The notes below the pieces were generated by a model. It was not told the DNA's origin and did not search any database. It worked only from the letters and a program-made list of their open reading frames with translations. DNA of 64,000 nucleotides from Psilocybe azurescens (lineage: Eukaryota; Basidiomycota; Agaricomycetes; Agaricales; Agrocybaceae): the NCBI GenBank assembly GCA_023853785.1, contig JAJIRX010000080.1, positions 1 through 64,000 on the forward strand, in the 5' to 3' direction. Position numbers and translations under genes: made by a program. Position 1 is the first letter of the stretch, and every line of letters begins with the position of its first letter. Below are positions 1-64,000 of this stretch, one piece after another.

Positions 1-234
1 CTCTCTGCTGCTGCCATATTGAACTACAATATGTGTGATTTGATGTATAAACCAAAACCAAAACACAAACCAGAGGAATGGTCTAGGCTGGATAAGACAA
101 CTCTCTCCTTTTGAGTTAAGTGAGGCTGGCTTAGCCACTAGACATGGTCTGAGAAGTGTGGGATCATTTAAAGGAGAAGAAATAGATGAAGGAGTATAAA
201 TGCCTTTGAGAGTTACTGGAGAAATACCCGACTG

Positions 235-2564: not shown

Positions 2565-2566
2565 TA

Positions 2567-3150
2567 CAATAGAATGAAGGCTGATGGAGTTTAGGATTGA
2601 AAAATGGAAGGATGTGTAAGTAAATAATATAGGATGAGTAAGAAGTATAAGCAGGATTATGAAAAGCAAAGTGAGATGAGTAGAAAAGAAGCAAAGCTGA
2701 GTAAGTACAATAAACAGAAATGACAAAAGAAGAAAGGATCAATCATATAAAAGTGTTAGACAATAGAAAAGCAAAAATAGCAAACAACTACCATGCTAAT
2801 GAATAGATCCAGTCTATTTATAGCACAGCTCAGTCATCCATTACCAAGACTGCTGGGTGAGACATAGATTTTCTGCATATGTGGAATCCAGTTAGGGACC
2901 AAATAGTTGTATATATATAGATGACCAAATGCTGATGACAATAGTGATATATAGCGCTGTGCATACTAGGATGGATAGGAATAATAAGCTGCATATAATC
3001 TTGAGGTTTGAAATAGAAAGACAATTGAATCATTAATAGAGAATGTAGCTGATCAAATTGTTGAAGTGGAGATTGAAAGTTGGAATGGAGATTGAAGTGA
3101 ACTATAAATGGACTTCAACATTGAATATTGAGGGATGCACTGAAATGTTA
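2567..3150. repeat. Dispersed repeat, copy 1, right part
   Basis: This is the continuation of the repeat broken by Tc1 element A. It matches about 11.18-11.79 kb, with shared blocks such as 'gattatgaaaagcaaagt' (2653 and 11272), 'cagctcagtcatccattacca' and 'gtagctgat...attgttgaagtg' (about 3047 and 11688). No coding function is visible. From 3151 to 3420 the sequence is AT-rich and I see nothing recognisable. Confidence 0.6.
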
Positions 3151-3420
3151 AGTGCAAAGTGTCTGTGCAATTGCCCAATACACAGCACATGATCAAATAT
3201 TTATTGATCAGTTCAATCTGGGAGGGTAAGTTGCAACTTATTACATACAATAACTAGACTTTTGTAAATACTGCTAGAGCAATCTCTATGTGAGAACAGG
3301 AGATTGCTGTGGAGTATATCAACAATATCAGACTAAATATCACATACATAAAAATAGGAAAGAGACATACCCAGTGAGCCAGGCAGAAAGGGACTAATGT
3401 TGCACCTATGCAATTAATAT

Positions 3421-3856
3421 TGTTACGACTTCAAGCTTATATTCACGTGCGTGGATAAAGCCGACAGTCAAGTAGTCAAGAACAGTGAGTTTGAGTGGTA
3501 TCAAGTAAGAGAAGATTAGATTCTCAAGAACTAGCTAAGGAACAATAGCAGTGTCTACTGGCTATTTAAGTGTTTTGAGTATCTACAAAGATAGTACAAA
3601 ATGAGTCCAAGTATGAGTCAAGCATAGGATGAGTCAAGCATAGGATGAGTCACAATGGTGCCATCGAGCGTGAGTCAGAATGTGAGTCAAGAAGTGAGTC
3701 AGAGCGGGCGAGTCATAACAGTGTCAACGATGTGAGTCAGGATGGAATGAGTCAAATATACAATCATATGATGTTGTCCATCATGTGATAAGAGGTTTTA
3801 TATAAGAAAATGAAAATAAAAACAAAAAACGAAAAGAAAATAAAGTGTTCATAACA
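3421..3856 (+). mobile_element. Solo LTR with TGAGTCA array
   Basis: This 436 bp unit starts TGTTACGACT and ends CATAACA, the TG...CA termini of LTR retrotransposons. It is flanked on both sides by the perfect 5 bp duplication AATAT (3416-3420 and 3857-3861). There is no internal coding region, so it is a solo LTR left by LTR-LTR recombination. The upstream part holds eight exact TGAGTCA sites between 3614 and 3754. A TATA-like sequence (ttttatataag, about 3794) follows, consistent with a U3 promoter reading in the plus direction. It retains about ten CpG dinucleotides, many more than its surroundings, suggesting a younger insertion. Confidence 0.85.
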
Positions 3857-3861
3857 AATAT

Positions 3862-5382
3862 GCCTTGATCTGGCCATCTGAATAATTACCCAGAAAAGAA
3901 ATAATGAGTTATCAGTAAAGCACATGGATTATTGTTAAGCACATGGAAAATCAATAAGTGCCTGTGCTTTAACCTTCAAGAAAAATTAACAAATATAGAT
4001 AGGACCTAAATACAGATACATTGGTCTGTACACACAGTAGAAAAAGTATATAAACCCTAGAATAAGTAGCTCTAGCTTCTCAGTTGAATCTAGTAGAAAA
4101 TGTGAAAATAATAATAAACATATAATGTTGATAAGGCTATTGAATAAAACATTGTTTATGCTAGAATATGAGAGATTGGTTGAGATGGTAATTGTCATTG
4201 ACTCAACTTGCATTACAACTTTTTGTTTTGGAGGCTTTGATTGGTCTTCATCTCAAGCAGCAAAATGAATTTTGAATGTTATAGCTTTTCAATTTTATTG
4301 TCCTTATTACAGAACTAATGTGACTGCAAGAGTAGCTGTCTCACTCTTGTCTTTAATCATCACCTTATAAATATTGAAACAAGATCACAAACTCAAACAC
4401 ACTGATCTTCAGGGTTCAATTGTTGATCTCTCACAGATGAAGATGGTGCTAAAGCATCTCAAAGCTTTTAAAAAAGAATTAGATGGGATTCAAAAGACAG
4501 TGACGGAATTGGATAGCATCTTGAAGCATATCCTAGCACCAGAGGACATCTTAAAGAGTGCCAAGAAACCAGTATGTCTCATATCCATTATATTCTATAT
4601 CATTGTTAATGATATCACAAAGAATGAGTTTTTTGACTGTGAAATCAGAAAACCTTAAAAGAGCTGGTGTTGTCAGGAAACGTCTCACTTTGCATCTGCA
4701 AAAGTAACTGAGTTAGTGGAGACACTGGTGCTCACAGTGCATGCTGAGGCAGAAATTTTAGATTGCCACTTCTGGATCATGCAAGCCAGCAGCTATGACT
4801 GACAAGTCTGAAAAGTTTGAAAGAAATCCAATAGTTACTTCTATCACTCTGTACTTTAATATAGCAAACACTATCCTCTTTGTGTATCATCTAAATTTTA
4901 TGAGTGTCTTTGATCCACCAAAATGACAAGGTCTTGTCCTGATTGAAATTTTTGAAGATAGCCTCAAAGATGTCACAAAGAGATTAATAAAATTATTCTC
5001 AACTATCTTGAGTGCTTTCACTTAACTTCTTGAGTAATGTTCTTTAGGGCTGTCCATTCACAAAATTCATTGCATAAGTTACAACTTTTAGAAACTCATT
5101 GACAGATGTATAGTAGATATTGCCTATTGATATTTTATATAGCAGAATACTGCCTACAAACTTAGATTCAAATGTGCACTACATCTTCAGAATGATAGTA
5201 GAAAGTTAATAAAAGTGTGAGAAAGCTTTCAAAGAAGCGTTGATAGTAAAAAATTGGCATAAGCAAGGTATTGTGATTTTGCACCAGCAACTATACCTAT
5301 ATAAAAGATATTTTTGTAAATACTGTCAGTCTTTTCTATTTAGCACAAACATGCTGTATCTCAAAGATATAAACTAGGCTAG
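3862..5382. other. AT-rich, CpG-depleted non-genic stretch
   Basis: There is no recognisable gene or element here. Between 4261 and 5220 I count only two CpG dinucleotides. A 94-codon plus-strand ORF at 4374-4658 has a Lys/Leu-rich, coiled-coil-like start but no family I recognise, and it sits in mutated repeat DNA. I read the stretch as decayed transposon sequence. Confidence 0.5.
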
Positions 5383-5686
5383 TGTCAAGGCAACACTAAA
5401 ATCAGCATGACAAGGCCATAAACAAAGACAAGTAAGAGGATAAAAGCAGAGAATGAAGTGAGAGCAGAAGATAGACTTATGAGAAATCAATGATTTAAAG
5501 ATTTACACTAATTATAATGCAAATTCTAATAGACAGAAGCTGGAAATCTATTTACAAAAGTATAATGAAGAAAAGTGACAGTAAAAACTTCTAGAATGAT
5601 TAAGATATCAAGGGAAAAAATAATAAAATAAACAATAAATGATAATCATGTGAAGAAAATAGAAATAAATGAGAAAAATCCTGATA
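5383..5686 (-). mobile_element. Gypsy-type LTR remnant 1
   Basis: This copy is homologous to the LTRs at 5697-6082 and 7115-7566. On the plus strand it begins tgtcaaggcaacac and ends cctgata, a mutated form of CCTGACA. It has the same orientation as the gypsy 3' LTR that starts 10 bp away. Flanks gctag and gcaag differ by one base and may be a mutated 5 bp target duplication. It is shorter than its relatives (304 bp), apparently by internal deletion. Confidence 0.65.
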
Positions 5687-5696
5687 GCAAGATGAA

Positions 5697-6082
5697 TGTT
5701 AGAGCAACACTAAAATTAGTGTGATAAGGCCACTAATAAAGACAAGCAAGAAATCAAAGCAGAAAATGAAGCAAAGGAAAAAATAGACTTATAAAGGTTC
5801 AATAATCTAAAGGTTCACATAAAAATTCTAACAGTTTGAAGCTGAGAATCTATTTACAAAACATCCAGTATTTATATTACTCCAGGAGATGACATCAAAA
5901 TGATGTCATAATGATATCACTACTATTCTATAGTATTCTATAATGTTCCATAGTGAGTAGTAAAGATGAATGATAGTGGTAACTTCTGGAATGAATAAGA
6001 TATTAAAAAAAATAAAAAATAAAAAACAAAGTAAATGATAATTATGTGAAGAAAATAGAGCTAAATAAGGAAAACCCTGACA
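5697..6082 (-). mobile_element. 3' LTR of a minus-strand Ty3/gypsy element
   Basis: Read on the minus strand this LTR starts TGTCAGGGTTTTCC and ends near GTTGCTCTAACA. Directly before it on that strand lies a purine tract (about AAAAAGGAGGTGA, 6083-6095), the expected polypurine tract position. Integrase sequence follows upstream (6.1-7.1 kb). It is therefore most simply the 3' LTR of the decayed gypsy element that extends to about 8.4 kb. A matching 5' LTR was not found by eye. Confidence 0.7.
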
Positions 6083-6089
6083 TCACCTC

Positions 6090-8402
6090 CTTTTTAAGAC
6101 ATATTTTCCACAATGTGCTTGACTATAGTCTAATTTAGAAAGTTTTAAAGGTAAAGTAAAAATAGTAAAATTTTCAAAGAAACAAAAAATGTTTATTAAA
6201 AGTAAAAGCAGAAATCCTTTTAAGTATGGCTGGATATTTTGTGCAATTTTTTAATCAGTTTAAAGGCCTCTTTGAGATTATCTACAGGCTTCTAAGTACT
6301 TCATTTAAATAAATTTTCTATTTGACAAAACATTGTAGCTTGTCTCTATAAAGTCTATTGTCTTTGATGATTTTAATTTTCTATTTTGAATTATCTCTAG
6401 CAACAATAGAAGATCCAGAAGGAGGTTTTTTCCAGAAATAATATCAGGATAATAAGATAGAAGTTTCACAGTGTTAAATACTGGATAGATTTTTATACTA
6501 CAAAGTAGCTTAAGTTTATAAACATTTAGACCAATGATCCTAGTGACTTCATGAGGCCCATATCTCCTATTATCTAGCTTTTTAAAAAGCCTCTCAGTCT
6601 TGAGATTTTTGCTATCAAGCTGAACTAAATCTTCAACCTTGTATTTAACAGCTGTTTCTCTGTTTCTTTTCTGGCTTTTGCTATGTTTTTGACAAAAATA
6701 TTAATTGCCTCTATCTTACCATTTCTGAGTTATTCTATGCCTATTCTTAGATATCTACCATTGTTCAGCATGAATGCAGTTTGCCTAGTAAAAGCCTGAA
6801 CTCTGTTATTGTAAAAAATTCTGCTAAAGACAATCATTTCATCCAATTATCTTGTTTATGATTTATAAAAAGTCTAAAATATTGTTCAATTTCTGGATTG
6901 ATTTTTGAGTATGACCATCAGTTTGAGAATGATAGGCTGTGGATGATACAGTCTGAATGCTGAAAATTGGTTTAAGCTTTTCACAGATTTGTAAACAAAC
7001 TGTGGATCTCTATTATAAGTGATTTTGATAAGTATCCTATAGAGCATACATCTTAGCAGTGTCTGATAAAATCCACTGAAATGTATTACCACACATCAGC
7101 AGAAATTTAGATAGTGTCAGGGTTTTTCTTATTTATTCCTATTTTCATCACATAATTATGCTTTATCTTTTATCTCATCATTCACCATTCATCTTATCTT
7201 TTATTGTTCTTGATATCTTAATTATTCTAGAAGTTCCCACTGTCACTCTTCTTTATTACTCATCATGGTCTTGTTCATTACTGATTATTACTTATTATTG
7301 TCTTGTTCATTATTCATCATGGTCTTTTTATTACTCATCATAGAACCTTGCTTAGTCAGTCACCTCTAGTGTAGTATAAGTACTGCATGTTTTATAGATA
7401 GATCTCCAGCTTCAATCTCTTAAGATTTCCATCATTATTGGTGTGAACTTTTAGATCATTGATTCTTTATAAGTCTATCTTCTGCTTTTTCTTTATCCTC
7501 TGCTCTTACTCTCTTGTTTGTTTTTGTTAGTGGCCTTGTCACACTGATATTAGTGTTGTCCTGACAGATAGAAATAAGCTAGCCAATAGATTTTGCAGAA
7601 AATGTTTTGGTTTTGTTACATCTATCACAACTTCTGGTGTATGCTGCAATATAATAAAACATTCCTAGCCATTAATAATTTATAGATACCAGCTTTATAG
7701 TTTTCTATTTTTCCGAGTGTCTAGCAATATAGATAGAGCCAGGTATATCCAATAATTGCAGTTTTATTTCTTAAATCACAAACAGCAAAAATAGCTTTTT
7801 TATTTGATTCTTATATATCATATATGTACTATAATTAAATCCACTTCTTTATAGATAGAGTTACTTTTTTGAGAGTACTATCAACATTGTAGACTGAAAT
7901 AGCTGTGGAAAGTTTTTTGTATTGAGATTATGGTATTTAATAAACCTGGTGTTTTTTTAAAAAATATGTAGTTCTAAAGTCTAGTAAAGCATTTATACTA
8001 AGCTTTTTCTATATCCATTGTTTTTAAGATAACTAACATGGGTAGAGGTTTTAGGTCTGTGATTTAAAATATAAATCATATCAAGAATTGAGAAAGAAAA
8101 AGATTTAAGATATTTTCAGAGAATATGAATTCACTCTCAGTATCAGAATTGAATGTGTTGAGATTATCAATTTATTTTTCTATTAGGACATGTTTCTCAC
8201 TAATGGAGCCTTTAAAAATCTTTCTGTGGCTTATTTTTGCTTTTTTGCTTTTTTTTTCTTCTTTTAAGATATTCTCTCCATAGAAAGCATGCAAAGCTTT
8301 GTAGTCTATTGAGTTTATATTGACTGTGGACCTACAGTTAGCCAACTTATGACTAGGCTTTCTGCATTTTAAACACATTACAGGTCTAACAGACTGAACC
8401 AA
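6090..8402 (-). pseudogene. Decayed Ty3/gypsy gag-pol (RT largely missing)
   Basis: Minus-strand fragments appear in the expected order. A gag zinc knuckle at about 8375-8330 reads CLKCRKPSHKLANC (CX2CX4HX4C). A protease-end motif near 7.75 kb resembles AIIGYTWL. Integrase core at 7092-6886 shows NRDPQFVYKSVKSL and YHPQ, degenerate forms of the SDRDPQF...YHPQTDGQ motifs. A C-terminal block at about 6.66-6.46 kb includes RLFKKLDNRRYGPHEV and HPVF-like residues typical of chromovirus integrase tails. Only about 1 kb separates gag from integrase, so most reverse transcriptase and RNase H is deleted. A foreign LTR (7115-7566) interrupts the integrase. It is a dead relic with many stops. Confidence 0.75.
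7115..7566 (+). mobile_element. Solo LTR nested in gypsy integrase
   Basis: This 452 bp LTR begins TGTCAGGGTTTTTC and ends GTCCTGACA. A perfect 5 bp target duplication GATAG flanks it (7110-7114 and 7567-7571). It belongs to the same LTR family as 5383-6082 but lies in the opposite orientation, inside the integrase of the older minus-strand element. The nesting shows that at least two rounds of insertion of one family occurred here. Confidence 0.85.
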
Positions 8403-10519
8403 CTTCTATAAAGACTATATCTGATTGTCTTGCATGAATTGGCAGATTGCCTAAAATGTCTTGAGCAAAAGTGAAGGAAGAATTAAATGGCCTGGCTTGG
8501 AAGAGCTTGGATATTAGTTTAGATATAGGTGTTTGTGATTGATTAACTGATCTAGAGAATAAGGTGTATGATTTTTAATGACTTTTTCTGTCTCCATTGT
8601 CTACTCAGTTTAGCAGCTCAAGAAATAGGCATCTGTGGCAGATAATAAATTTTATCCACTAGAGATGAGTCAAGTCACAAGCTGTGAACTGGTTTGATTA
8701 AAAATTGTCATTATAGGCATTAAATGCCTCCATCTGACTTTCATTTTTCTATACTCTTCCAATATAGCATTTCTGTTTATGTTCTGATTTTTTTCTATTA
8801 CATAGACCATCCACTGGATATGGTTGGGAAAGACATGTCATGGAATTTTTATTAACAATCACAGCACTTAACACTGGAATAGATCAACAAGATATATTTC
8901 TTGACAAGCATCAATGTGCAATATGTAAGAAGGATGAGAATGTCATGCTTTAGTATTGTTATATTTTCAGAGATACAAAGTCAAAATTGTAAGTTGAATA
9001 TCTCTGTGATATATCTGTAGCTAAAGTAAGAGACAGAAGTGGTCTGATCTCAAGGCCCAAAAGTGAATCCTAATGCAAGCCAAAGTGTGCTCTCAGATAT
9101 GAACTACACAATAGCCTCCTTATGTGTTTAATCGTCATTTCTTTTTTGATGCATATGCTTTCTTCATATGTTTTGTTCCCAATATGAGTTTAATTCAGCT
9201 TTTATTTTGTCAAGCATTCACAGAAAACAGATGCAAAAGTTTTTTTGTCAATTACTCCAATTGCTTTATTCTTGTAGAGTTCTATGACAAAGCTATTGCA
9301 CTTGATATTAAGAATCACCATACACTACTTTCTTTCTTATTTATTCTTCATAAAGGTGTGTCTGTGAATTTTACCCATACCAACTCATTAATCCTGAAGT
9401 TGGTGATGACAACTGATGAGATAGGATTTATTCTGATAGTGTATTTGATGACCTGTAAACTCATTCAAACATAATTCACTGTTGTGAAAGGCTTGTCAGA
9501 TGAAAGGTACAAGCTGGACTGGTATAGCAGATGAAATATACAAAATTACTGCTGAATATCAGAGTTTTGGCTGATTAGCACTATTATTTATAAAAATAAA
9601 TAGAGAAATTCTTGAGCAGTGTAGAATCATATTATGGACAGAATTATGATAGATTAATCAAATTTATTGTATTTACAGTCTTTTAATCTTGGTTGATGAA
9701 TGCACTAGAGTGCCCATATCTACTAACTATTAATGTCCAATTAAAAGATGGTATGCATTTTATTATGATTTATTTCTTACCTATTTCATATCAACTCTTG
9801 AGTAGAAATGTGTATAACTATAGTCTACTATAGTTGTGGGTCACTCATTAATTTAGTGCCACAATCAATAAATACAGCTATGCTTGAACAAATTAACTGA
9901 GACAAAACCTCAATTAAACTGCATTAATCTTGCAAATGCTATGCATATCTTTTCTAATATTGATCTTCATTAGCAAATCTTAGTTTTTGGCTATAATCAG
10001 CTATAGCATCATATTTAAATTGTTTAGCATCAAACTATCAAAAGTGTTATATAGCCCATCACCAATCAATACATATATAGTACTTTCTAGTACTCTATAG
10101 CATCAGTTTTGCTGGATAACAATCCATAGAGATGCCACTAAGCTATATAAATAGTGACCAATAACAAATCATATTATTTTTAGCATTATATTAGCCTTTA
10201 TTAGCATTTAAACACTGGGTTAGTGACAGTATTGTCTGCTGCAGCTATCTGAGCATCATCATTTGCTATGAGTTATATAAAGGCATGACTAATATTAGAT
10301 TATGTTCTGTACACTTTGATATAAAAATAACAATACTAAAAGAAATAGTATAGACCAAATAAAATAATTCTCTTCTGTTGAACATGTAAAAGTTGACATT
10401 GTCACTAGGTTATAAAAAATAGATGATGGGTAGAGTATAGAATTGAATAAAACAAAAATAAGTATATAGAGCACTATAAAAATAGCTCAGAGAATTTACT
10501 GAGATCATATAAACAAGTG
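8403..10519. other. AT-rich repeat-derived stretch, no gene
   Basis: The first few hundred bases probably continue the decayed gag of the gypsy relic. Beyond about 9 kb I recognise nothing. A 116-codon plus ORF at 9124-9474 is Phe/Leu-rich and matches no family I know; its composition follows the AT-rich background. CpG is almost absent. Confidence 0.4.
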
Positions 10520-11790
10520 AAGTTAGGATAGAATAGTGTGGATGAAGAGCATGAACTATTAAAGAGAAAGATGGCTAGATAAAAAAATAGATACATATAG
10601 GTTCAGAAGTGACAGTGTATTTTTGCTCCTGCTTTTTTTAAACAAATTCTTGAGCTTCTACAAAGCCAGAAGTAGAGTTTGATAATAATAATAAATAAAA
10701 TAGGTAGAGTGATCACAGATGTGAAATTTGAAGATATTCTTTGAACCAAGAAGTCTCAGGATAATGAAAGTAATAAAAAATAGATGAAAAGAATGAATAA
10801 GAAACAATAGATAGATGAAGGGTTTTGAAAAGGGTTGAAAAATACAATTGGAAATTGAATAAAAGTGATGGGACTGTGTGAATGATGGCTTGGTTTGATT
10901 TAAGCCCTGAATTTGTTTCATATGAATAAAATAAATGCTAAATTTTGTGCTAAATACTGATAATATGTAACTGCTTGAATATATGTTAAAGTACTGCTGA
11001 TGGCTAATAATATTGCTGTAAGAAAGTTAGGCCTTATAACTTTTTGCATTTCAAGCTATACTACTACATATATGGCTTATATATTATGGAGTTCAAGAAA
11101 AATATTTAAAAGAGAAAAAGTGTCCAAACTATATTGATTATTTTGAAGTTTGATGTTTAATAAACCAATCTGCCAAATATAGATAATAGAATAATAACTA
11201 ACAGAGTTTTGAAGTGAAAAATAAAGTATAAGTAAGTAAGTAAGATAGGATGAATAAAAAGTATGAGCAAGATTATGAAAAGCAAAGTAAGATGAGTAAG
11301 AAAAAAGTAAAGCTGTGTAAATACAATAAGTTGAGATGACAAAAAGAAGAATAAGTAAATTATATGAAAGTGTCAAACAACAGAAAAAGAGCAAAAATAG
11401 CAAACTAGTATAATGCTAATCAATAAAGCCAGTTTAATTATGGCATAGCTCAGTCATCCATTACCAAGATTGCTAAATGAGACAAAGATTTTCTATATGT
11501 GTAGATTTTACTAAAGAATCAAGTGATTGTAAACAATCAAATGCTGATGGTGGTGGTGTTATATGGTACTATATAATGCTGTGTGTACAAAAATAGACAA
11601 GAATAATATTCAAAAATAAGTTGTATATAGTCTTGAAGTTTGAAATAGATAGTTGATTGAATTATTGGTAGAAAATGTAATGTAGCTGATTACATTGTTG
11701 AAGTGAAGACTGAATGCTGTAATGAAGATTCAAGTTGAGTGTGAATAGATATTAATATTAAATATTAAAATATGTGTTTTAGATAAAAAT
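10520..11790. repeat. Dispersed repeat, copy 2 (uninterrupted)
   Basis: This is the second copy of the repeat at 235-953 and 2567-3150. It reads through 'ctgccaaatatagataatagaat' near 11170, where copy 1 has Tc1 element A. It therefore serves as an empty-site paralogue. ORFs of 87-108 codons on the minus strand are Phe/Leu/Tyr-rich shadows of AT-rich DNA. No function can be assigned. Confidence 0.6.
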
Positions 11791-12139
11791 GCAAAATAAT
11801 AATTATAGCCTCTGCATATGATGAGGATCTGGGACACATATTCTATGCTTGCAGATAAATCTCATATACAATCAAAATTGATATATAACAACATATCAGT
11901 GCATTGTCAACTTCAACTCTCCAAAGTTCTTTCTTTTAGTCTTATCCACTATGTTCTGATATTATGATACTAGATGTTATCTCTCAGCAAACACAGAGAT
12001 CAGAGCTGAGAATAAACACTATCAGCTAAAGCATTGCTTTCAAAACATCTTTGACACTGTCAGGATTGGATTGGATAGTCTAATGCTAGGAGAAAAGATG
12101 AGTTCACTATTTTCAAGGCAATGCTCACTGCTTACTCCC

Positions 12140-12460
12140 AAATGATGAACAAAATATTTGCTTTATCTTGCATGACTGCTAATACCCCCTTCTGCCACAT
12201 AGTTATATTTGCTTTATCTTGTATGACTGCTAATATTATTTTTTTCATGATCATACTTGTTTTGATTATTAATACTCTCTTACTTTGCATGATTGTACTT
12301 GCTTTTACCTCACATTACTGCTAATATCTCTTTTCCTTGCACATTTATTTTTATTTTATCTCACATGACTGTGCATTTTCTTTTCTTACATGATCATACT
12401 CACTTTATCTTATACAACTGCTAATATCTTTTTTCTTACACATTTATACTTTCTGAGTGT
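12140..12460. repeat. Degenerate ~50 bp tandem repeat
   Basis: About six imperfect units of roughly 50 bp occur, each with a variant of 'tttgctttatcttgcatgactgctaatat' split by a T-rich linker (for example at 12149, 12207, 12300 and 12409). Units are strongly diverged. It may be an old minisatellite or part of a retroelement terminal repeat. The rest of 11.8-12.87 kb shows no gene. Confidence 0.55.
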
Positions 12461-12869
12461 GTATAACTCTATTAAAAGTCTGGATTCTGGAATTGAATTT
12501 TTAGGTAATAAAATATATTGGGGTCTCAAAATATGTATAAGATTATGTAGATAGTGTGCTATAAATTAAGTTTCAAAGTTTACTGAAGAGAAAATGTGTG
12601 CTTTTCCCTTTCAAAAATTGATATTTTGATTTCTAAGAATTGTAAAATTGACTCTTTGTGTAGCTTGCATGAATTGTCTATATTGGCAAACTGCTAAAAA
12701 TATTTTCAAGTCTTTTGCTATTGAAGAGACCATTGCATGACTAGCTGTGTAAAAGAATGAATAGCCAAAAGTAGCTGAATTTTTGGCATCCAGATGTATA
12801 TATATGAGCTGTAATATGTTCATGAAGGACAAGGTAAACTATGAAATACACAATATTGGCTCACAGCTA

Positions 12870-14452
12870 CAGTGAGGGACAAAACTGTACCAATATTTCA
12901 GATATTTCTAATAAATTATGAATAACTTAGAAACTAAGAAAGCTAGAGTCTTGAAATTTTAAATGTAGGTAGCCTTGGATATTATCTATCTAACCATATG
13001 ACAAAAATTATGTAATCATTTTTCTTCCCACACTATAAATTTTTTAATAAAACAAGTACATTGGTATAGTTTTATCCCTCTTGAAAATTATATACTATAT
13101 TACAATAATCAGTACTTAGTGTATCTTCCTTGGGCTTTTACAACAGCTGCTACCCTTCCAGCCATACTCTCTATCAAATTCTGACACACAGAAGCTGGAA
13201 TTTCATTTCAAACCTTCTGAACCCTTTCCCAAAGTTCTGCTATACTAGATAGATGGTTTTCATAGTCTCCAAGTCTTGATTTGAGATGAACCCAAAGGTG
13301 TTCAATTGGGTTAAGGTCTGCTGATTGTGGGGTCATACCATAATCTCCATACCATTGTTTTCTAGCCACTTCATAGCCTTTTTTGCTCTTGTGCTTTGGG
13401 TCATTGTCTTGTTGAAAAATAACATTTTCAGGATTTTTGTTGTAATATGCAAGGCTTTGTTGGAGTTCATCTTCCAGAATGGAGACATAAAGGTCAGCAT
13501 CCATCCTCCCATCAATCTTGGTCCTATATCCAACTCCTTCCCAAACATACAGTCCCAAAACATCAAAGATCCTCCTCCAAACTTGACTGTGCCTTTTACC
13601 TGCCTATCAGAAAGTGCTTCTCCTGGCATTTTCCACACCCAATTCCTCCCATCTGACCCCATACAATTGACTTTAGTCTCAATTGTAAAGCCAACCTTCT
13701 TCCAGTCATCAATGGTCCAGTGTAGGTGAGCCATTGCAAAGTCCATATGTTCTCTCTTATAGCATTTGGAGAGTAGAGGTTGTTTTTTGACTACAGCCTT
13801 TAGACTAATGTTCTAAAGGGCCCGGCAAACTGTTTTTGGTGTGAGGGACTGATTGGTGACTTCTTTTAAGGTTTTGGTAATCTCAACAGCATTTTCAGCC
13901 TTGTAAGAAGTGATAAGATGGAGTGCATACTGCACATTGGAGGGTGAAAGTTTCTGAGGACAGCCACCAGTGGACTTGACAAGATCAGGACAGTGTTTGT
14001 TGCAGATACAAAATATAGAGGACATGGAAACACCAGTAGTTGCTTCAATTTGATGAGCAGAATCTTTTTATTAAGAAGAAAGACAATGTGAGTGCGTTGG
14101 GCAATAGTAAGTTGGTGCATGGTGAAATGATAAGTTGGGGGATGTTGTAATCAATGTACAAGAGTATATATACCGTTGCACTTGAATCATGTTATTTTAT
14201 TTGTATATATTTGGTTGTAATCAACAAAGTCAGGTGAATTGACTGAGGGACAAAACTGTATCAATGTACTTATTTTATTAAACAATTTATAGTGTGGGAA
14301 AAATGATTACATAATTGTTGTCATATGGTTAGATAGATAATATCCAAGGCTACCTATCTTTAAAATTTCAAGACTCTAGCTTTCTTAGTTCCCAAGTTAT
14401 TCATGATTTATTGGAAATACTTAAAACATTGGTACAGTTTTGTCCCTTACTG
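12870..14452 (-). mobile_element. Tc1-like DNA transposon B with long TIRs
   Basis: The element is 1,583 bp, bounded by CAGTGAGGGACAAAACTGTA on the left and its inverted form CAGTAAGGGACAAAACTGTA on the right. TA duplications lie at 12868-12869 and 14453-14454. TIR arms of about 210 bp (12870-13081; 14242-14452) each end internally with an inverted copy of the terminal motif, giving four putative transposase-binding sites. The minus-strand transposase inside is frameshifted. Arms are about 90% alike by eye, so this copy may be younger than element A. Confidence 0.92.
13208..14120 (-). pseudogene. Frameshifted Tc1 (DD34E) transposase
   Basis: Minus-strand reading starts MHQLTIAQRTHIVFLL (14120) and runs through an HTH region (CPQKLSPSNVQYALHL...LTPKTVCRAL, about 13965-13813). 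It then enters the catalytic domain. The second Asp is in FQQDNDPKHKSK and the final Glu in DLNPIEHLW, with 34 residues between them, the DD34E spacing of Tc1. The first catalytic Asp, normally in FSDE, reads FTIET at about 13685, so it is lost. Frame changes occur near 14.02, 13.8 and 13.55 kb. The enzyme is therefore dead. Normal length for the family is about 340 residues. Confidence 0.85.
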
Positions 14453-55116: not shown

Positions 55117-56522
55117 TAATTGAATGCTAGCCACTGCTTCTAGTTTTCTGACCTGGAGGCATACCGTTTCTGACCGTATGCATGTCTAGTAGAAGTTCGT
55201 AGTTACCTGGTTATATTATGATTTATGTAGTACATATAAGTGTAGACTTTCTCCTCGCATTAAAAATGTATACCCTTCCGAGCATTCACTACATAGTACG
55301 GCTTTATTGCGTAAAGCCGCAGAATCATAACGGACCAACTTAGTGAAATGTCTCCGATTGGGCCAGTAAAAGGCACTGCATAGCCGCATCACAGGCGTCG
55401 GAGCTGGTTTACGGAAGGTTGCTGCATTTATTTGTACGTTCCGATTCCTCAGGCTTTCGTCATGATCACCATTACTGATCGAGACCTCACAATCTTTGTT
55501 TGGTTTGTGGTAAAGAATTTCAGTCAAGCTAGTCTCCTTCCTTCAATTGCTTTCTACCAATAATAGTTATAATAATTAGACGCTCGCAGTCTCACATGAC
55601 CCTTAATCAATCGCTGGCACTTCCTAAGGAAAAAAAGCAGAATCGTGAATTCTCAGTGATAATGCAAGATAAAACTTGTAGGATTACATCATACGACACG
55701 AAAGAGCGTTATATGGCTTGATTAATTTCAAGCTCCCTGTGACACCTTGATTCTTTATCTGCGGCACATAAACGGTAATGTAACTGGAAGGCATAAATGT
55801 CGTCGCATCGCTTTGCGATTTCAACGGAAGCGTTATTACCGTAAAGACTATCACCACACTATCAAGCACTCTATAGTTACAGTTACTCCTTGGAGTAGAC
55901 AGGAGCCGCCAACTAAGAAGTGCCGATCCACTCTCCCTTACTACAGTCGTGGACAATCAAACTTGACTAATTGATGATCTCGGCAGCCAAGCAATCTTTC
56001 GGAAACCTGATTTCAGATTCTCGTTCAACTTGTCGAAATAGGTCAAAAACACACCTCCGAAGTTTTTCCCACAAGCCGTTTAGATCGGCCAAATTTTTGA
56101 CCAAAATCAATGACATTTTATGTACCTAAGTTGGGTTGATACATCCTTCATCGTTATCTAATTGCTCATTACACATAGGGCAGCTACATTGTAGCGAGTG
56201 ACATGGGCCGTAGAACGCACACAATGTATACGTGTGACACGGGGCCATAGAATTCTATGGAAACCACGTACATTTTAGTGTGGTGGGAATTACTTACAAA
56301 TGAATGACTCAGAGCCGACTGATACTTTACTTCACCTGTGGCTGTTCAAATTGTGAGGTCGGCTACGAAAATATCGGCCACATGCCGACCTAGATGAAAT
56401 AAATTATTGTATTACTTCAGCTACAGAATTGGGGGCTTCAGTTACGTATGTGGAGGCCAGCGAGTATCTTCTAAGCGTTGAGGCTGCAACTCAGTCCCGA
56501 CATTTCTCGGCCAGCATTCAGA
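55117..56522. other. Intergenic; start of TCGGNNCCGA-type motif DNA
   Basis: No gene is seen. From about 56.34 kb, fragments such as 'gaggtcggctac', 'atatcggccacatgccgacc' appear, marking the transition to the motif-rich region. I could not identify a terminal inverted repeat or target duplication by eye. Confidence 0.45.
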
Positions 56523-57617
56523 TTAACTATCATCCGATAGTGCCATTAACTCTTTATCAAACTTCCCAATTGCATCGATAGTTCGATCATTGAAATTCTT
56601 GAAGGCTTTTTGAGCTCCGTCACTTGCTCTAAGCTTCTCCCATTCTGCCATGTAAAGCCGATGGCTAGCGTCTTTGTAGGATATACCAAGGGTTTCACGA
56701 AGATAATTGACCTCAGTATGTATTTGTAGTAGCTCACGCTCGGTCAAATGCTATTATCCATAAATTAAATAGTGTTCAACATAAATAAAGTCATGCTTAC
56801 AGGATCGGCAGGGACCAAAACTGTGTCACCGAGAATAACAAAATCCCGTCCAGTACTGTTTCCTGACTGAGGATTGAGTGAGTTTGGATTCTAAAGCGAG
56901 ACAATGAAAACGAATGATAAATGGTATGTAGGCAGCACAGAAGGGCGGCAGATTAAATCGGCCCCGATAACTGCAGCCGCCACACGATACCGAGTCAAAT
57001 CAGCCTCAAATTATGTAGGTCAATATATAGCTATCACATCATATTGATCTCTACAAGCTTTCAGAGACCTGATATTCAAACATAAAAAGAGCAGGAACAG
57101 ATATCTGGGAAATCGGGGCCGATATGTTTACACGGCCACCGACTTCGGAGATAAATCGGGCCCGAAGCTGTGTGGCAGCGTCAGCGGGGCCGACGATATG
57201 TCGGCACCGATGCAATCAGCTAGTCAGCCGTTCACAGCTGGAAGAATAGTTATGAGTGCAACGAAAGGTATTTACCCCACCAGGTTGAGTCTCCAGCCGT
57301 AGATGATCTTGTTGGTGCGCATTAATGAATTCTTTTCTGGTGGCAGAAACCAGGAATTCGGGTACGTAAATCTTCTCATTATCGGGCCCGATCAACTGCA
57401 TGAACCCTGCAGGAATGCTGCCATACTCCTGAGAAGAAACAGCGTCCGGAGTAGCGATTGGCTCGGCATCAATGTGTAAAGTTGGCTGAATATCTGGTCG
57501 GTGCCGATCATTAAATACCGACGATGTATGATGGTCGATGCGAGATGACGGCGTACCTACGGATCTGAACATATCATGAGAGTCTGTCTGAATGTCATGT
57601 ACATGGCTTTCTTGCAT
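56523..57617 (-). CDS. Agaricomycete ORF A next to KDZ transposase
   Basis: Three pieces on the minus strand look like exons of one gene. The first is 57617 to about 57280 (MQESHVHDIQ...; FMQLIGPDNEKIYVPEFLVS; KEFINAHQQDHLRLETQPGG). The second is about 56890-56810 (NSTGRDFVILGDTVLVPADP). The last is about 56752-56523 (HLTERELLQIHTEVNYLRET, SYKDASHRLYMAEWEKL, ending MALSDDS). The last part is helical, Glu/Lys-rich. I recall similar ORFs as repetitive in agaricomycete genomes, but know no function. The gene is divergent from ORF B, 214 bp away. Exon limits are approximate. Confidence 0.5.
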
Positions 57618-57831
57618 CGTTGATAGTGATATAATATGTTGGAGGAGATCAGAATAGAGATTGCAACTGGATTAGGGAGTTATTTGTCACTGTTTATATC
57701 ACATGACTGTTGATTTTGCCAGCACCTTACATTCTGGCAGCTTTACCGTCTGCTACAATCTTCATCTGCCGACTCGGCGCCCGAGAAACAATACACACTC
57801 AAAAATTTCAACTACATTCGAGTTCATCATT

Positions 57832-60450
57832 ATGTCTAATACTATCCATATTCCGTCTGCAACCGACCTCATCAAAGCCCTTCGTGATGTCGATGATAGT
57901 ATCCGCCGTGGATTGGCCGATGGCAAAGTTGCGAGTGTAATAAAGGAGAAGAAACATGAATTGGTGAGAAATCATACGCTGTTACAAGTAAAATTCACTG
58001 AAGCGACCACTCAGCGAGCGATATTTGAACTTAATTGTAAAACCGGTCCCGAAGTGGGCGCGATTTGCAGGAAGTCTTCGACCAGCCGATATTTTTCTGG
58101 AGCTTTTTGAAAGTGTGGAAAGAGGTAAAGCAAGCTGGACGCACTCCCGAATTTCTGAGACAGCACATACAAAACATGGAGGCTTTTGACAAGATGGTAA
58201 CGGGGCCGATGAGCTGCATAGCCACTGCAGTAGCAACGCCGGGCACGATATCGCAACCGGCCACACACTCAGTCGTTCAAGACGTGCCTTTGAGAGCTGG
58301 TAACACATCAAACAGCGACGCAATGCGTAGAATACCATCAGCCCAGGATCCACAACAACCAATGGATGAGCAGATTACCAGACGCGTCCGTCGTCGGCCG
58401 TCACGGGTTCGAACTGAATCGCCCGAATACGAAGTGAGCATCGCGCATGATGCTCAACGCCCACAAATTGAGGCCACCACGCGAACTATATGGATGGCCG
58501 AAAGGATTGTTGCCGAAGAAGAGGATGCCACGGACGCCCGAACACCAGCGCCGAAGAGCATCGGGCCGCGTAGTCGGGACCGATCGGGCGCCCGTCGTCG
58601 ACAACGCAACTCAAGTTCAGAATACAGCGAGCATCGTGAAGCACCACGCGAAGATTCTTCCGAAATAGACGAGCTTGTTGAAATCCAACCAAAGCCGCTT
58701 ACAGGGCAAGCTGAACCCGATACCGTGCGATCGGTGCCGACGAGCAAACGCCGACTGCTACGATCGGGTTCAAGGACGTGGAGCATGTTTTCGGTGCAAT
58801 CGACAAAAGGTGAAATGTAGTCTCGGAATTAGAGCAATTAGCCACCGCGAATAGACGAAAGTCGTCGACATCGAGGGAAGCTGAAATCTCGGCGCATCAT
58901 TGAAGTATCGGATGAACCATCGGCTGAGGAGGAAGAGTACGATGAAGAAGACGAAGATGTGCAGATGGATATTTTGGAAATCCCTGCTACTGCAGTCGTG
59001 GCAGAATCATCGAGGTCAAGCGCGGACACGGGCAGGGACGTCGGCTCGGCATATTCGGGAGGTATCGGCACCGTCTGACGAACATTATACGGGCCGCTTT
59101 TCAGCTATTGAAAAGGGGAAAAATCGTGGTACGTGTCCTGTTTATCTTTTGATTTTTCATATTTTACAATAACCAATAGACCTGCCCGAAGCCACCGACA
59201 ATGAAGAGCTGGCGGCTCGTGTGGACATATTGTCGACAAAGTTAGACTCGGTCACTGCAGATGCCGCCTCAGCGTTATCAATGGCATACGATTGCAATCT
59301 AGCTTGTGTCGAGTTGGAGAAGTCGGCAGCGCACAGACCGAATGCCGGTCTCGGTCACCGTGTCACTCAGCTGGAGGGCAAAATGAACGACATTTTGGGG
59401 AAATTGGATATGTTTGAAACACAATTTTCAGACATTTCCACTATTCTCCGCAAGTTAAGTGCAAATGGTATGCTCATTCTGAATCAAGGTGCATCGGGGC
59501 CGATCCAGTCGGTAGAGGACGACCTCATCGGCAACGATATGGAAGTGGAAAAGGACGTAGAATTGGTATCCGATGGTCCATGTGAAGCAAAGAATGTCGA
59601 TGCCAATTCCATCACGCAGACGGTGGAATTAAGTGCCAACATCGGGAGCGTAGCAGGCGGTGAATCGGTACCGACAATAGTGCCGATAGTTGAACCCAGC
59701 GCCCGACAAGACGATTCGGATTCCGGCCCCTATGTTCCGATATCACCGCCGATGGTAGAACAGCGCGGGAGGATGATTCCGTTTCCGGCCCCGATCCCTC
59801 AAACTTCGATGATACGGCGTTAACGACGCACAGGAAGAACAACGAGAACTTATCTCGTCGGTTCGTAAAGATTTTCCTTCCGTGCAATTGATTCCGCCAA
59901 CACCCAATAACTTCGCAGGAGCAGGCCACATACAGTGCCCACATTATTGTAGCCGGTACTCATCAAGCTGCTTCAACGGTGCCAGGAAACGCCACTTCAG
60001 CTGAGTTGGCTTCATATACCACACACACTTCTCCCACCTTGCAAGCACTCGAAAGTCTGCTGAACTTGGTTGAAACATCAACGCATTTGGGACCGATTAC
60101 TTTCGGTCCCGATGATGTCAATGTCGGGTCCGAGGTCGGTAATGGCGTTGAATTGTCGGTTGCCGGCGGCTCCGAGTCGGTCGATATCGGTAGAGAGTCG
60201 GCAGATATCGGTCCCGAACCAACTTTGTCGGCTGCGCCTCCCCTTACTCTTGTTGCAACGCAGTCTCTTCTTACTCCGCCTCTACTATCACAGAATGATA
60301 CAAATGACTGTCGCCCGTTCACCACGTCTCGCATCACCCCGCCCTTCGCCAATGGTGTCCCGTAGTCCAACACCTGGACGACCAGGGAAGCGTCCACGTA
60401 CTGACATTTCGCCTGCTACAGAGAAAAGCAAAAGACCTCGTCAGGGATAG
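57832..60450 (+). pseudogene. Agaricomycete ORF B, hydrophilic, frame-broken
   Basis: It starts MSNTIHIPSATDLIKALRDV (57832). Exon 1 ends at 57987 and joins at 58071 to EVFDQPIFFWSFLKVWKEVK. A long Arg/Ser/Glu-rich region follows (RRVRRRPSRVRTESPEYE; EEEYDEEDEDVQMDILEIP). After an intron and a one-base frame break near 59060-59075 comes a coiled-coil segment (59170-59470: DNEELAARVDILSTKLDSV; LEGKMNDILGKLDMFETQF). The C-terminal part (59480-60450) is Gly/Ser/Val-rich and broken again at about 59820 and 59930-59980, ending SRSPTPGRPGKRPRTD. The residues IGP, SGP and FGP recur where the DNA motif TCGGNNCCGA falls. No known domain; probably decayed. Confidence 0.5.
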
Positions 60451-60689
60451 TTCCAGATCTCAGTACATATCATTGTTGGGTCAGATGTAGATTTTTTGTA
60501 ATGCCTTTCACTGCTCTTATGTTCAATAAATTTGATTCTATTTTGTTCATGATAATATAAGGAAGTGCAGTTTATCTGTGCCTTGTACTGCGTCTAACTG
60601 GTATCCCAGCCGTTAATGTGGCTGATGTTGATCCTACATCGCCGGCCGCTTTCTTTGTTTTCCTTTCTTTTTATGTGATGTAATAGGAA

Positions 60690-63046
60690 CAATATGGTAA
60701 CTTTGTGGTTCTGTTTCCGACTTCTATCGGGACCGATTTCGGGCCGCCCTGAGTAGAGATCGGTGTCGGCATGCGCGTCGGGACCGGTGTAGGGCTCTGC
60801 ATCCGCACCGATCTAGTGATCTGCGTCGGGGCCGATGTGTGGATCTGCGTCGGGACCGTGTAGGGCTCTGCATCCGCACCGATGTAGTGATCTGCGTCGG
60901 GACCGATGTAGGGATCTGCGTCGGGACCGATGTAGGGATCTGCGTCGGGACCGGTGTAGGGATCTGCTTCGGCACCGATGTAGGGATCTGCGTCGGGACC
61001 GGTGTAAGGATTGGGATCCGGACCGCTGTTGGGATCTTCGGCACCGGTGTAGAGACTGGTGTCGGTGTTGCCCTTGAGTGGGCATAGTTGTACCAAGTAG
61101 CCTTGGATCAATATTACTGTTGTTAATGACGTTGGTTGCTCCTCGTGTGGATAAACTTGAATCCAATAGGTACATAGGTATACCATCTGTGGGACCATTC
61201 ACTGGGAATTGGTGTTCAACTCCAGATGGAAAAATTGACATTACTTCTTGCTGAGTGGCATAGACATCCTCTCTGAAGATTAAATTTGGGATGTCTTGCT
61301 GGATGCTTTCCATATCTTCATGAATTGCATCCTAATTATTATAAGATTGTAAGATAGTGGTTCGGTATCAGCAATAATCGGGACCGATACACTTACAATC
61401 TGCCGGACATCATGTCTCGTGCCCGATATCAATGTCAAAGTTGGTTGATATTCTTCAATGTTTGGCGTGATGTGCATATTGGTCAGTGCTAAAGTATTTT
61501 CCACTTGATCCGACTCAATTTGGCATCGACTTGTTGTTTTATTTCGACGTTTATTTCTTGCTTGACGTCGGCCCCGATCGGCATCGGCAACGGTGTCGGG
61601 ATATTCTGAGGGAGCGGGACCGTCTTTATGTTTAATAGACCGAAAACGAAAAGTGTCTTGTGGTTGATATAATTGCTGTCTTTTGATCAAGTGCCCAAAA
61701 AGCATTGTATGCTGTCTTTATGGAGATTCCGGGGTTTGTAAATATCATGTTGGGAGGTAAATATTTCGATTCGATAAAGGTCGCCTGAGCGTAGGATATT
61801 TGAGTGTATGGAACTTTCTCTGTTTTACCACCAGTGGCAAGGTCTATCTATAATTCAGGCAAATTGGACTCGAGGCATGCCTGAACTAAACTCACAGTAA
61901 TGATTATTCACGTACAGACTGAAAGCTTCTTCCCAGTCACTTTTTGTCCACTCTTTATCTGGCAAAGGGATAGGTATGATTGGGAAACCATTACTAGTTT
62001 TTCCCAATGTAAATATTGGCTTCTTTGCTGTTGCTCGGTTAACCGTGAATGCTAAGTGAGGGTTTTGCTTGAGATTTTGCAAGCCCGTCATATAATCCAA
62101 TATGTTTTGTTTCATTCGGTCGACGTCAGCCCGATATGTACTCATGAATGAAGGGGCGGGAACACCCATCAAGCTGGCAATTTGTTCGTATCTAAAGCAT
62201 AATCAGCTGTGTTTTTCAATGAGTTGCTGGAATATGCCGATCCAACAATTATGTCGGCCCCGAGAAAACTCGGCTGTTATCTGCAATCACGTACCCATCG
62301 ACTGCGACCTTGCCATCTGCTAATGGGAAGCAAACAAAAACCACACTGGTCATCCCCATCTCTTTATATTGGTCATTCATTGTTTGATCAATCCGCCTGA
62401 CATGATATTTTTTGGCCAAACTGTGATATAATTGTTAGGTCGGTTCGGACACGGGGCCGTATGACCGACCTTGCTTGTGTGTGCTCGTCATACCCCGCAT
62501 TGAACACCTTTCTACTTCATCGTCAATGTCCTTACGTTCATTCTCAGTCATCTTGTCCCAGATATTCTTCATGGCGACTGTCCTGTGGCCAAACCAACCC
62601 GAGGTCTCTGCTGAAGCCTCTTCAAGACCCATAATATTTGCGATTTCCGCCCAAATTTTTGATTGATGATTGTACCAGAGTACATCTGATCTTTTGGGCG
62701 AAAGTGGTTGGATTTGCGAGCCATTCCTCGTTCAATTCGCCAATTGTTTGAGCACCAGGTGATGATCTCCTGAATTATCTTCAGATACACGCTCTTCGAA
62801 GTTGGCTACATATCACCTTACCTTTGTCCAAAGGCGACTTTCGGTGTCATCCTTAGCCCTTTTCCCTCGACTGGCCCAGTAATTGAATATTGCGACCAGT
62901 ATGTGGTTTGTTAAGATGAATAGACGTTCTTTGACTGTCCTTGCTTTCACAAAAGTTTCTTTGAAAGGCAGAATTTGCTGTAGTTCTTCGACACTGAACA
63001 TCTTCGCTTTCCGTTTCTTGTTTTGTAATACTATGGTTGTGGTCAT
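60690..63046 (-). pseudogene. Agaricomycete ORF C with C-terminal 8-residue repeats, frame-broken
   Basis: It begins at ATG 63046 (MTTTIVLQNKKRKAKMFSVE). Recognisable blocks in order: FNYWASRGKRAKDDTESRLW, CSNNWRIERG, KIWAEIANIMG, WFGHRTVAMKNIWDKMTENE, MNDQYKEMGMTSVVFVCFPL, MGVPAPSFMSTYRADVDRMK, FPIIPIPLPDKEWTKSDWEE, FIESKYLPPNM and a polar tail (SEYPDTVADADRG). The order resembles a large agaricomycete protein family that I recall as repetitive and of unknown function. The tail runs into a 24 bp tandem repeat. Frame breaks appear near 62660-62700 and 61640-61690. It is divergent from the KDZ gene and convergent with ORF B. Confidence 0.5.
60727..61050 (-). repeat. 24 bp tandem repeat carrying TCGGGACCGA
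   Basis: The unit is about GGGATCTGCGTCGGGACCGA plus TGTA, repeated roughly a dozen times with variation between 60727 and 61050. Each unit includes one copy of the TCGGNNCCGA palindrome or a near match. Because 24 is divisible by three, all frames stay open. On the minus strand they encode PDADPYIG, PTQIPTSV or RRRSLHRS units depending on frame. It forms the 3' end of ORF C. Confidence 0.85.
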
Positions 63047-63194
63047 ATTGTTCAGTGAAAATACCTGTAAAAATGGCACAATGCAAGATAAAGAAATGTG
63101 GATGTGATTAGGAATGGACCTGAAACATTCACAGACTGTGAGTTGCTACAACATGCCTCATGGAAGCCTCATGTTCATTTAGTGCCCAGCCCCG

Positions 63195-64000
63195 TGATGA
63201 CCACATACATCTCGCCGCCTTCAACCATGAACTCTTCCAGTGGACCAGCTAACAAAAGACAAAGAAAGTCAAAACACTTGGTTCAAGGAAGTGTGGAAGC
63301 CTCTCAGGCGGTTACCCACCTCTCCGATGTCTTCAGCGGTCCCAAATCACAGCGAAGAGTGTTAGTGCCGCTTGTGACAACTATCGCAGAAGATCCAACG
63401 TTGAGTGACCAAACTAATCCAAGAGAACATATGGTTAACCACAATATGTTAAACGATGATGGAGTGTCAACGGAGCCCTTGAATACGACCCGTCAAAAGA
63501 AAAGCAAGGTAACCGTTTATTAAATGAAGTACAACATTTTTCAAACAGTACTATGCAGACGCAGCAAGAATATATGAGAGAATGGGTAGATAGAATAGAA
63601 GACTTACTTCAAGCATCACTTGCTCGAGAGACCTGGCCAGCCGACAAGCAGCACTGCCAATCTTGTCCAGCTGGCTCCTGGGCCATATGGAGATGTATAG
63701 ATTGCACACTTGCAGAGCCACTTTGTCGCGAAATGTATGTGAAATTCACATCGGTTGCACCTTTCCATCGAATTGAATGCTGGGCACAAACGCACTTCCG
63801 CAGAGCCGAGTTATGGGAAGTCGGTTGTTACATTCTTGTCCCACATTGTGCAGGGATTGCTATATGTGAATCACTACTGTTCCAGATTAAATATTTGGAA
63901 ACTTTACAAGAATATCCAGACCGGCTAGAACAGGAAAAATTAGATACATTGTATGGCCCGGCCGGTTCGGGGCCGACTTTCACTAGTTCGGGGCCGAGAT
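63195..64000 (+). CDS. KDZ-family transposase, N-terminal part, cut by window end
   Basis: Exon 1 runs from an ATG at about 63195 or 63227 to 63508 (NKRQRKSKHLVQGSVEAS; RQKKSK). An intron (63509-63558) joins to TQQEYMREWVDRIEDLL. The next residues form the cysteine cluster found at the N-terminus of Kyakuja-Dileera-Zisupton transposases: CQSCPAGSWAIWRCIDC, then PLCREMYVKF, VAPFHRIECW and ELWEVGCYILVPHCAG. The usual form has further Cys/His residues between PLC and PFHRI; here M and F/T stand where ligands are expected, so the cluster may be damaged. The KDZ catalytic domain would lie beyond the window. The frame is open to base 64000. Confidence 0.7.

Follow-up and report, generated by a model that had tools for sequence, protein, structure and literature searches.

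Why should a short palindrome that is absent from most of a stretch of fungal DNA recur again and again through a single segment of it? The question is raised by a 64,000-nucleotide stretch of Psilocybe azurescens DNA (assembly GCA_023853785.1, contig JAJIRX010000080.1, positions 1 to 64,000 of the forward strand; hereafter 'the window', on a contig designated C79), the last segment of which is part of a KDZ transposon. A first-pass annotation had drawn attention to the motif, TCGGNNCCGA, with core CGG-N2-CCG and flanking T/A, and had proposed that it is a dyad-symmetric protein-binding site spread through one large KDZ mobile element. We analyzed the motif in one genome (70.4 Mb assembly), with gene models at the level of open reading frames (ORFs). 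We find that the motif is enriched at a strict spacing throughout the element and persists in diverged families, and we suggest that it may be the site of a dimeric protein encoded by the element itself.

Enrichment and spacing of the motif in a KDZ element

The window contains 23 exact TCGGNNCCGA sites, all inside 56,958-63,997. The exact count places their starts, with no strand assigned, at 56958, 57113, 57156, 57201, 57382 and 57498 (span 56958..57507); at 58574, 58731, 59494 and 59665 (span 58574..59674); at 60103, 60124, 60208, 60727, 60826, 60897, 60921 and 60969 (span 60103..60978); and at 61378, 61568, 62254, 63967 and 63988 (span 61378..63997). The first-pass annotation had listed at least 22 copies, of which 21 are exact; the start given as 57381 is really 57382, and the site at 60124 had been missed. 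Dinucleotide shuffling of the entire window yields a mean of 0.49 sites (largest, 3), and first-order Markov shuffles of 56,172-64,000 alone give a mean of 0.106 (largest, 2 in 1000), matching the earlier estimate of about 0.1 by chance. The remark that no copy lies between 15 and 56 kb also holds: positions 1-56,171 contain 0 sites. A comparable density in ordinary genes, which would have spoken against the annotation, is not seen in the regions covered, which are 42 kb of the window and the 26 kb that flank the C33 copy described below (0 sites in each). The central dinucleotides are of nine kinds, the eight noted previously plus GT, with both half-sites kept. Four of the exact sites lie in a tandem array with a 24-bp unit, GCGTCGGGACCGATGTAGGGATCT (60775..61037, no strand); the other 19 of the 23 lie outside it.

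The segment that carries the sites is the left part of a transposon copy. Positions 56172..64000 (plus strand) are 97.6-98.6% identical to a complete, 13,879 bp copy on contig C33 (160,520-174,398), and the window copy continues on contig C79 as far as about 66,114, beyond which it no longer matches the complete copy. The C33 copy has ends of the form CACATAG..CTATGTG, in inverted repeats of ~131 bp, with a 7-bp target duplication, AGCTATA, on both sides; the left terminal inverted repeat in the window, which starts CACATAGGG (56172..56302, plus strand, 131 bp), is 100% identical in reverse to the C33 right end. The C33 copy has a KDZ transposase domain (PF18758; E=1.1e-15, 58.4 bits vs. a cut-off of 26.6), which is the sole domain over its cut-off in the 20 C33 ORF stretches scanned, and the C79 copy has the same domain (E=2.9e-21) at C79:65432-65791, just past the window edge. 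The C33 copy contains 31 TCGGNNCCGA sites, spanning C33:160843-173016 (element positions 324-12,497 of 13,879), with none in the ~131-bp inverted repeats and 0 in the 26 kb that flank the copy. Because the sites fill the copy and are absent from its flanks, we conclude, in agreement with the first-pass annotation, that the extent of the motif region is that of one KDZ element.

Coding sequence does not account for the sites, as had been argued at the outset from their occurrence in coding sequence of both strands. In the C33 copy, 18 of the 31 sites lie in 11 marked ORF stretches, on both strands and in every frame (8, 6 and 4 sites in frames 0, 1 and 2), and 13 lie outside marked ORF stretches, seven of these in the unmarked 3' part.

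The spacing of the two half-sites is strict. Among inverted pairs CGG-Nx-CCG in the C33 copy, with x from 0 to 12, there are 55 pairs with x=2 vs. 2.1 expected, compared with 1-10 pairs vs. 1.9-3.1 expected at the other spacings; in the element on C454 there are 24 pairs with x=2 vs. 1.4 expected, the next being x=0, with 9 vs. 1.4. In all six elements examined, the base preceding CGG is T in 61-78% of cases, the base before that T is A in 38-47%, and the first N of the spacer is seldom A (3-9%). The form is that of a dyad protein site, as first proposed.

Genome-wide, there are 1296 TCGGNNCCGA sites vs. 654 for a reversed control pattern, and some single sites lie outside KDZ elements. Pairs of sites at most 30 bp apart are a sharper measure: there are 43, on 19 contigs, vs. 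3 for the reversed control, and 43 of 43 are in KDZ elements. Gene-b elements (that is, elements with the gene, here called b, that is discussed below) are present there on 18 of the 19 contigs, as judged by eye against search matches; the remaining contig, C135, has a KDZ match only, near its start. Two other KDZ stretches that served as controls (5.5 kb and 4 kb) contain no TCGGNNCCGA, and in the 4 kb stretch, on C568, no spacing of CGG pairs is enriched. A DNA search with window positions 56,950-60,450 finds at least 46 matches in the assembly; the matches listed comprise 11 at full length and 97-100% identity, the window itself included, six partial rows from five different contigs (97-98%), and others at 66-92%.

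Persistence across families and loss in dead copies

To ask whether the motif outlasts the DNA around it, we compared the C33 element with seven diverged relatives, five without strong CpG decay and two decayed (C802 and C19). TCGG-N2-CCGA occurs 31 times in C33, 12 in C454, 10 in C154, 10 in C714, 9 in C311 and 6 in C440, vs. 0.03-0.27 expected in each, and ranks as the top palindrome in these six low-decay elements, except that in C440 it comes second, behind its own core, CGG-N2-CCG. By identity the elements form three families (C33; C454, C154 and C440, at 80-94%; C714 and C311, at 97%), and all three hold the motif at about 40-300 times expectation. Between families, silent sites of gene b are saturated or nearly so (synonymous divergence, dS, from 1.37 to beyond correction, over 40 and 65 codons), so that inherited neutral motif sites should be gone. 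In the alignable stretches, 12 of 41 site instances, in pairs that overlap, are at positions shared between families: C33 and C714 have 4 and 4 sites, with 2 shared; C454 and C714 have 1 and 3, with 0 shared; and C33 and C454 have 3 and 1, with 1 shared. The majority of sites are in stretches too diverged to be aligned between families. The comparison indicates that motif density lasts where unselected sites should vanish, and, because 12 of 41 instances are at shared positions, that it does so at least partly by turnover. Conservation between copies, the check proposed in the first-pass annotation, says little here: diverged families keep density more than positions, and near copies are too young to tell.

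The near copies, 11 in number and 97-99% alike, were compared with the tandem array (columns 4550-4900) left out. In these living copies, CpGs of the motif changed in 12 of 739 cases vs. 248 of 6727 for other CpGs (p=0.002). This CpG-matched comparison is the only one in the near copies that favours conservation of the motif. The remaining comparisons count against it, or are at best neutral: motif positions taken together changed more often than positions elsewhere (17/1485, 1.14%, vs. 448/57453, 0.78%), because CpGs are mutable; the 10-bp flanks of the motif changed more often than the motif itself (64/3633, 1.76%); and the free central NN changed least of all (1/374). Between families, retention of the core at matching positions exceeds that of other CpG-containing patterns only slightly (22/67 vs. 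20/103, p=0.068). Two further observations on abundance also tell against a maintained, inverted site: many of the 43 close pairs stem from near-identical copies and are not independent, and direct CGG repeats are also raised in the C33 copy (gap 3, 28 vs. 4.9; gap 9, 25 vs. 6.0), perhaps from tandem arrays.

Where elements decay, the motif is lost. The ratio of observed to expected CpG (o/e) is 0.77-1.04 in the six low-decay elements and 0.07-0.64 in 13 small loci of dead or distant relatives and C802, flanks included. In C802 and C19 (CpG o/e 0.53 and 0.50) there are 1 and 2 exact TCGGNNCCGA sites; C802 has 17 sites with at most one mismatch vs. 0.8 expected, and 13 of 16 mismatches are CpG transitions of TCGGNNCCGA. 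In the dead copies C280, C136 and C532 (86-92% identity, locus CpG o/e 0.47-0.54, two of the loci overlapping on C532), 1 of 24 aligned sites is kept, and the losses are mostly CpG transitions. By context, CpGs of the motif mutate in 28-35% of cases in dead copies vs. 21-33% for others, after exclusion of two motif contexts that had 1 and 5 cells, and no clear context preference of the kind expected for TCG-context hypermutation is seen in these copies. A switch of the C802 motif to TCCA-N-TGGA (16 copies) was considered and rejected, since the copies lie in two local stretches only and C802 is a CpG-decayed relative. The stretches are themselves local arrays (reverse complement 4607-4910 and 5921-5954), in which the 10-bp unit is built around TCCASTGGA. 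Strong CpG depletion in repeats of this fungus is also seen in a Tc1/mariner-type element (label given by eye), with inverted repeats of ~217 bp, that is nested in a KDZ stretch on C438 (reverse complement 817-2419): its CpG o/e is 0.10, vs. 0.68 in the surrounding KDZ element.

Taking together the spacing of 2, the enrichment in families with near-saturated silent sites, the presence of sites on both strands and in all frames, the loss through CpG decay in dead copies and the confinement of close pairs to KDZ elements, we conclude that the motif is probably maintained, and is not a residue.

A candidate reader and its rivals

What might read the motif? Gene b of the element (57832..60448, plus strand, in the window, where it is broken and matches in several frames; the gene-b protein query matches C79:57832-60295) encodes a cysteine cluster, CX2CX6CX9CX2CX6C (58714..58860, plus strand, assigned by sequence pattern), followed by an apparent coiled coil (59173..59820, plus strand, judged by eye; similar in other gene-b sequences). 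The Zn2Cys6 (PF00172) pattern is CX2CX6CX5-12CX2CX6-8C, with which the spacing of the gene-b cluster agrees. Six copies have the cluster whole (C33, C154, C714, C440, C19 and that of the window); in C802 it is damaged, and in C454 and C311 it is present in pieces only. Between C33 and C154 it is 59% conserved vs. 35% for the part that precedes it. Relatives of gene b among 5.77 billion proteins, by a word-based search of limited reach, number three, all annotated 'hypothetical protein' in Psilocybe cyanescens. As a segment, the cluster scores 21.9 (C33), 24.0 (C714) and 25 (C154) bits vs. the Pfam Zn_clus cut-off of 21. One exact site (58731-58740) lies within the codons of the cluster itself (TGC GAT CGG TGC CGA), and the gene of the presumed reader would hold its own site. 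The typical target of Zn2Cys6 proteins is a pair of CGG triplets in inverted, direct or everted arrangement, bound by a coiled-coil homodimer (PMC5559640). For this reason the gene-b product, a divergent Zn2Cys6-type protein to judge from its sequence, appears the likeliest binder of TCGGNNCCGA, and it is gene-b elements that accompany the close pairs on 18 of 19 contigs.

We propose, as a reading to which we give an even chance of being right, that TCGGNNCCGA, spread along most of the element and kept at high density as the element evolves, is the dyad site of a dimeric protein, most likely the gene-b product, and that through these sites the protein coats the element and keeps its DNA open and expressed against CpG silencing. 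According to this proposal, the two zinc clusters of a gene-b dimer would each occupy one CGG half-site; the dimer would read mainly the element's own copies, coating them through TCGGNNCCGA, and would hold the coated DNA open against silencing by the host, in the manner of the Arabidopsis protein VANC. The anti-silencing part draws on the CpG o/e of low-decay elements as compared with that of the dead or distant loci and of the nested mariner. The gene-b protein might instead act as a plain activator or as a transposition cofactor.

Several observations weigh against this proposal. The best Zn_clus stretch aligns the second half of the gene-b cluster with the first half of the profile, and the fold may not be canonical. 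The whole C33 gene-b ORF (406 amino acids) scores 15.8 bits vs. the cut-off of 21, and in a PF00172 scan of the genome just two gene-b clusters are listed, neither of which reaches the cut-off, and no cluster of a second KDZ clade described below. A sequence search of PDB chains with gene b gives no match. The lysine that reads CGG in Gal4 is missing from the first half of the cluster; Pho7 is likewise without that lysine (PMC5559640). Gene c and the KDZ transposase co-occur with the motif as well.

The first-pass annotation had suggested the element's transposase as the binder, and a proposal that the KDZ transposase, or the gene-c product, binds the sites for transposition is the most serious rival, although we consider it unlikely. 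Subterminal repeats serve transposase binding in En/Spm or Ac; sites and transposase are found together; the KDZ clade with the other spacing also has its own transposase; and the N-terminal ORF has weak zinc-module matches, below cut-off, to CxC2 (E=0.005) and to a B-box type (E=0.008). Yet a subterminal location would be expected, and the sites instead run throughout the element (324-12,497 of 13,879) and are absent from its ~131-bp inverted repeats; moreover, the sole family recognized as CGG-reading in the 20 C33 ORF stretches is Zn_clus, in gene b. The transposase thus keeps some claim, but the better candidate is the separate, Zn2Cys6-type gene-b protein. A Zn2Cys6 regulator of the host is a rather improbable alternative binder, for which the element would have gathered sites so as to become active under particular conditions. 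Zn_clus matches are numerous in the host, with 40 of 55 over cut-off, and CGG pairs are the usual Zn2Cys6 target (PMC5559640), but the confinement of close pairs to KDZ elements (43 of 43 genome-wide) and the spread of sites across coding sequence (18 of 31 within the marked ORF stretches), not promoters alone, speak against a host binder.

Explanations without a binding protein fare less well. The first-pass annotation had offered a methylation or silencing signal as an alternative, and the motif could be a target of DNA methylation or of a process like repeat-induced point mutation, or a chemical by-product of CpG mutation: it has a CpG in both halves, and old repeats in this genome are CpG-poor (o/e 0.07-0.64, and 0.10 in the nested mariner). 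We think this very unlikely, and a pure methylation signal is not favoured, given the strict spacing: decay destroys TCGGNNCCGA and does not create it, the CpGs of the motif mutate in dead copies as other CpGs do, and other CpG palindromes and spacings are less enriched. Least probable of all is that the motif spread by tandem duplication or through protein repeats (Gly-Pro peptides) with no function at the level of DNA. Two arrays do carry sites, the 24-bp array and a set of sites spaced by ~21 bp in the N-terminal region of the transposase, but the 24-bp array accounts for only 4 of the 23 window sites, sites occur in all three frames, on both strands and outside marked ORFs, and the motif is present in separate families. 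The 21-bp spaced sites (7712-8992 of the extracted C33 sequence) encode Ser-Gly-Pro repeats.

Three other ORFs or genes complete the part of the element in the window: ORF a (57216..57671, minus strand), with no function assigned and no Pfam match for the C33 copy; gene c (60671..63061, minus strand), probably of several exons, with no function assigned and no Pfam match over cut-off; and the 5' part of the KDZ transposase gene (63092..64000, plus strand, by ORF, with a weak CxC2 match in C33). Elsewhere in the window, positions 1-14000 are AT-rich (28-37% GC) and contain ORF remains that by eye resemble a retroelement pol (6305-6700) and a mariner transposase (13208-13812), and positions 14000-56171 contain 8 copies of TCGA-N2-TCGA vs. 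0.57 expected, dispersed and with varied flanks.

A second spacing and comparison with known systems

A stretch from another KDZ clade suggests that the spacing may differ between clades. In C438:674500-680000 (5.5 kb), there are 11 CGG-N3-CCG sites vs. 0.31 expected, all outside the nested mariner, which has none; CGG-N2-CCG is absent, and no other spacing from 0 to 8 is enriched. The N3 sites are dispersed (reverse complement positions 59-5494), with 7 of 11 in the portion that matches other copies of the clade and 4 of 11 in an 816-bp part outside the searched query. The clade has at least 14 copies at 93-100%, and in 4 of 14 (C546, C547, C689 and C810) the gene-b cluster query has a weak match (E=0.03, 37%) that lies 0.94-0.96 kb outside the stretch; the Pfam Zn_clus scan of the genome lists none of these Zn2Cys6-like matches. 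From this we derive a tentative extension, which we hold to be possible but doubtful: that every KDZ clade has a Zn2Cys6 dimer of its own and has filled its DNA with CGG triplets in inverted orientation at the spacing that suits this dimer (2 in the clade with gene b, 3 in that of C438), each protein recognizing and protecting its own family only. The second spacing is at once the most exciting result of the analysis and the least secure, coming as it does from one 5.5-kb stretch of one copy and a weak match.

Among characterized Zn2Cys6 regulators, the CGG-triplet spacings of Gal4, Put3 and Ppr1 are all longer than 2. The Gal4 class resembles the system proposed here in its six-cysteine pattern, in a coiled coil (probable in gene b) that follows it and in a paired CGG target (PMC5559640); it differs in that gene b is carried by a transposon and is divergent, the whole ORF scoring below the Pfam cut-off.

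The element itself resembles Kyakuja transposons (Kojima 2025, PMC12730594) in its KDZ transposase, its 7-bp target duplication and its 5'-CA..TG-3' ends. We call it 'Kyakuja-like' because its inverted repeats of ~130 bp depart from the two Laccaria families described there, which have none. Kyakuja transposons that carry TET/JBP genes occur in Agaricomycetes (PMC12730594), whereas the 20 ORF stretches scanned in the C33 copy give no TET/JBP match. The portions of PMC12730594 drawn on here make no mention of a dispersed motif or of an element-encoded zinc-cluster protein in Kyakuja, and, among the literature matches listed, none concerns a dispersed CGG-pair motif or a zinc-cluster gene in KDZ elements.

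The closest precedent for the proposed function, by analogy and with no claim of membership, would be anti-silencing by VANC of Arabidopsis VANDAL transposons, an element-encoded binder with an effect restricted to motif-bearing copies (PMC5735166, PMC10398659). In VANDALs, as here, a short motif is present in many copies within the transposon, and related VANDALs use different motifs, as the KDZ clades here would use spacings of 2 and 3, the N3 form being from one 5.5-kb stretch. The systems differ in that ours is a fungal KDZ element with a strictly spaced CGG inverted repeat and a probable Zn2Cys6 binder, in contrast to the VANDAL motif YAGTATTAY; and, as a point that disfavours the parallel, VANC sites are in noncoding DNA, in tandem repeats, whereas the KDZ sites are mostly dispersed, coding DNA included.

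The proposal bears on the means by which large DNA transposons remain active in mushrooms in which old repeats are CpG-poor. TET/JBP genes are one proposed answer; a site that the element writes into itself, together with a regulator of its own, would, if our proposal is true, be a second and sequence-specific one. Protein and site are both named, and the other clade offers a built-in swap of specificity (spacing 2 vs. 3). If the two spacings are indeed read separately, the elements would supply a small group of CGG-pair readers free of cross-reaction, and would constitute a fungal counterpart of anti-silencing by VANC that evolved independently and has its sites even within coding sequence.

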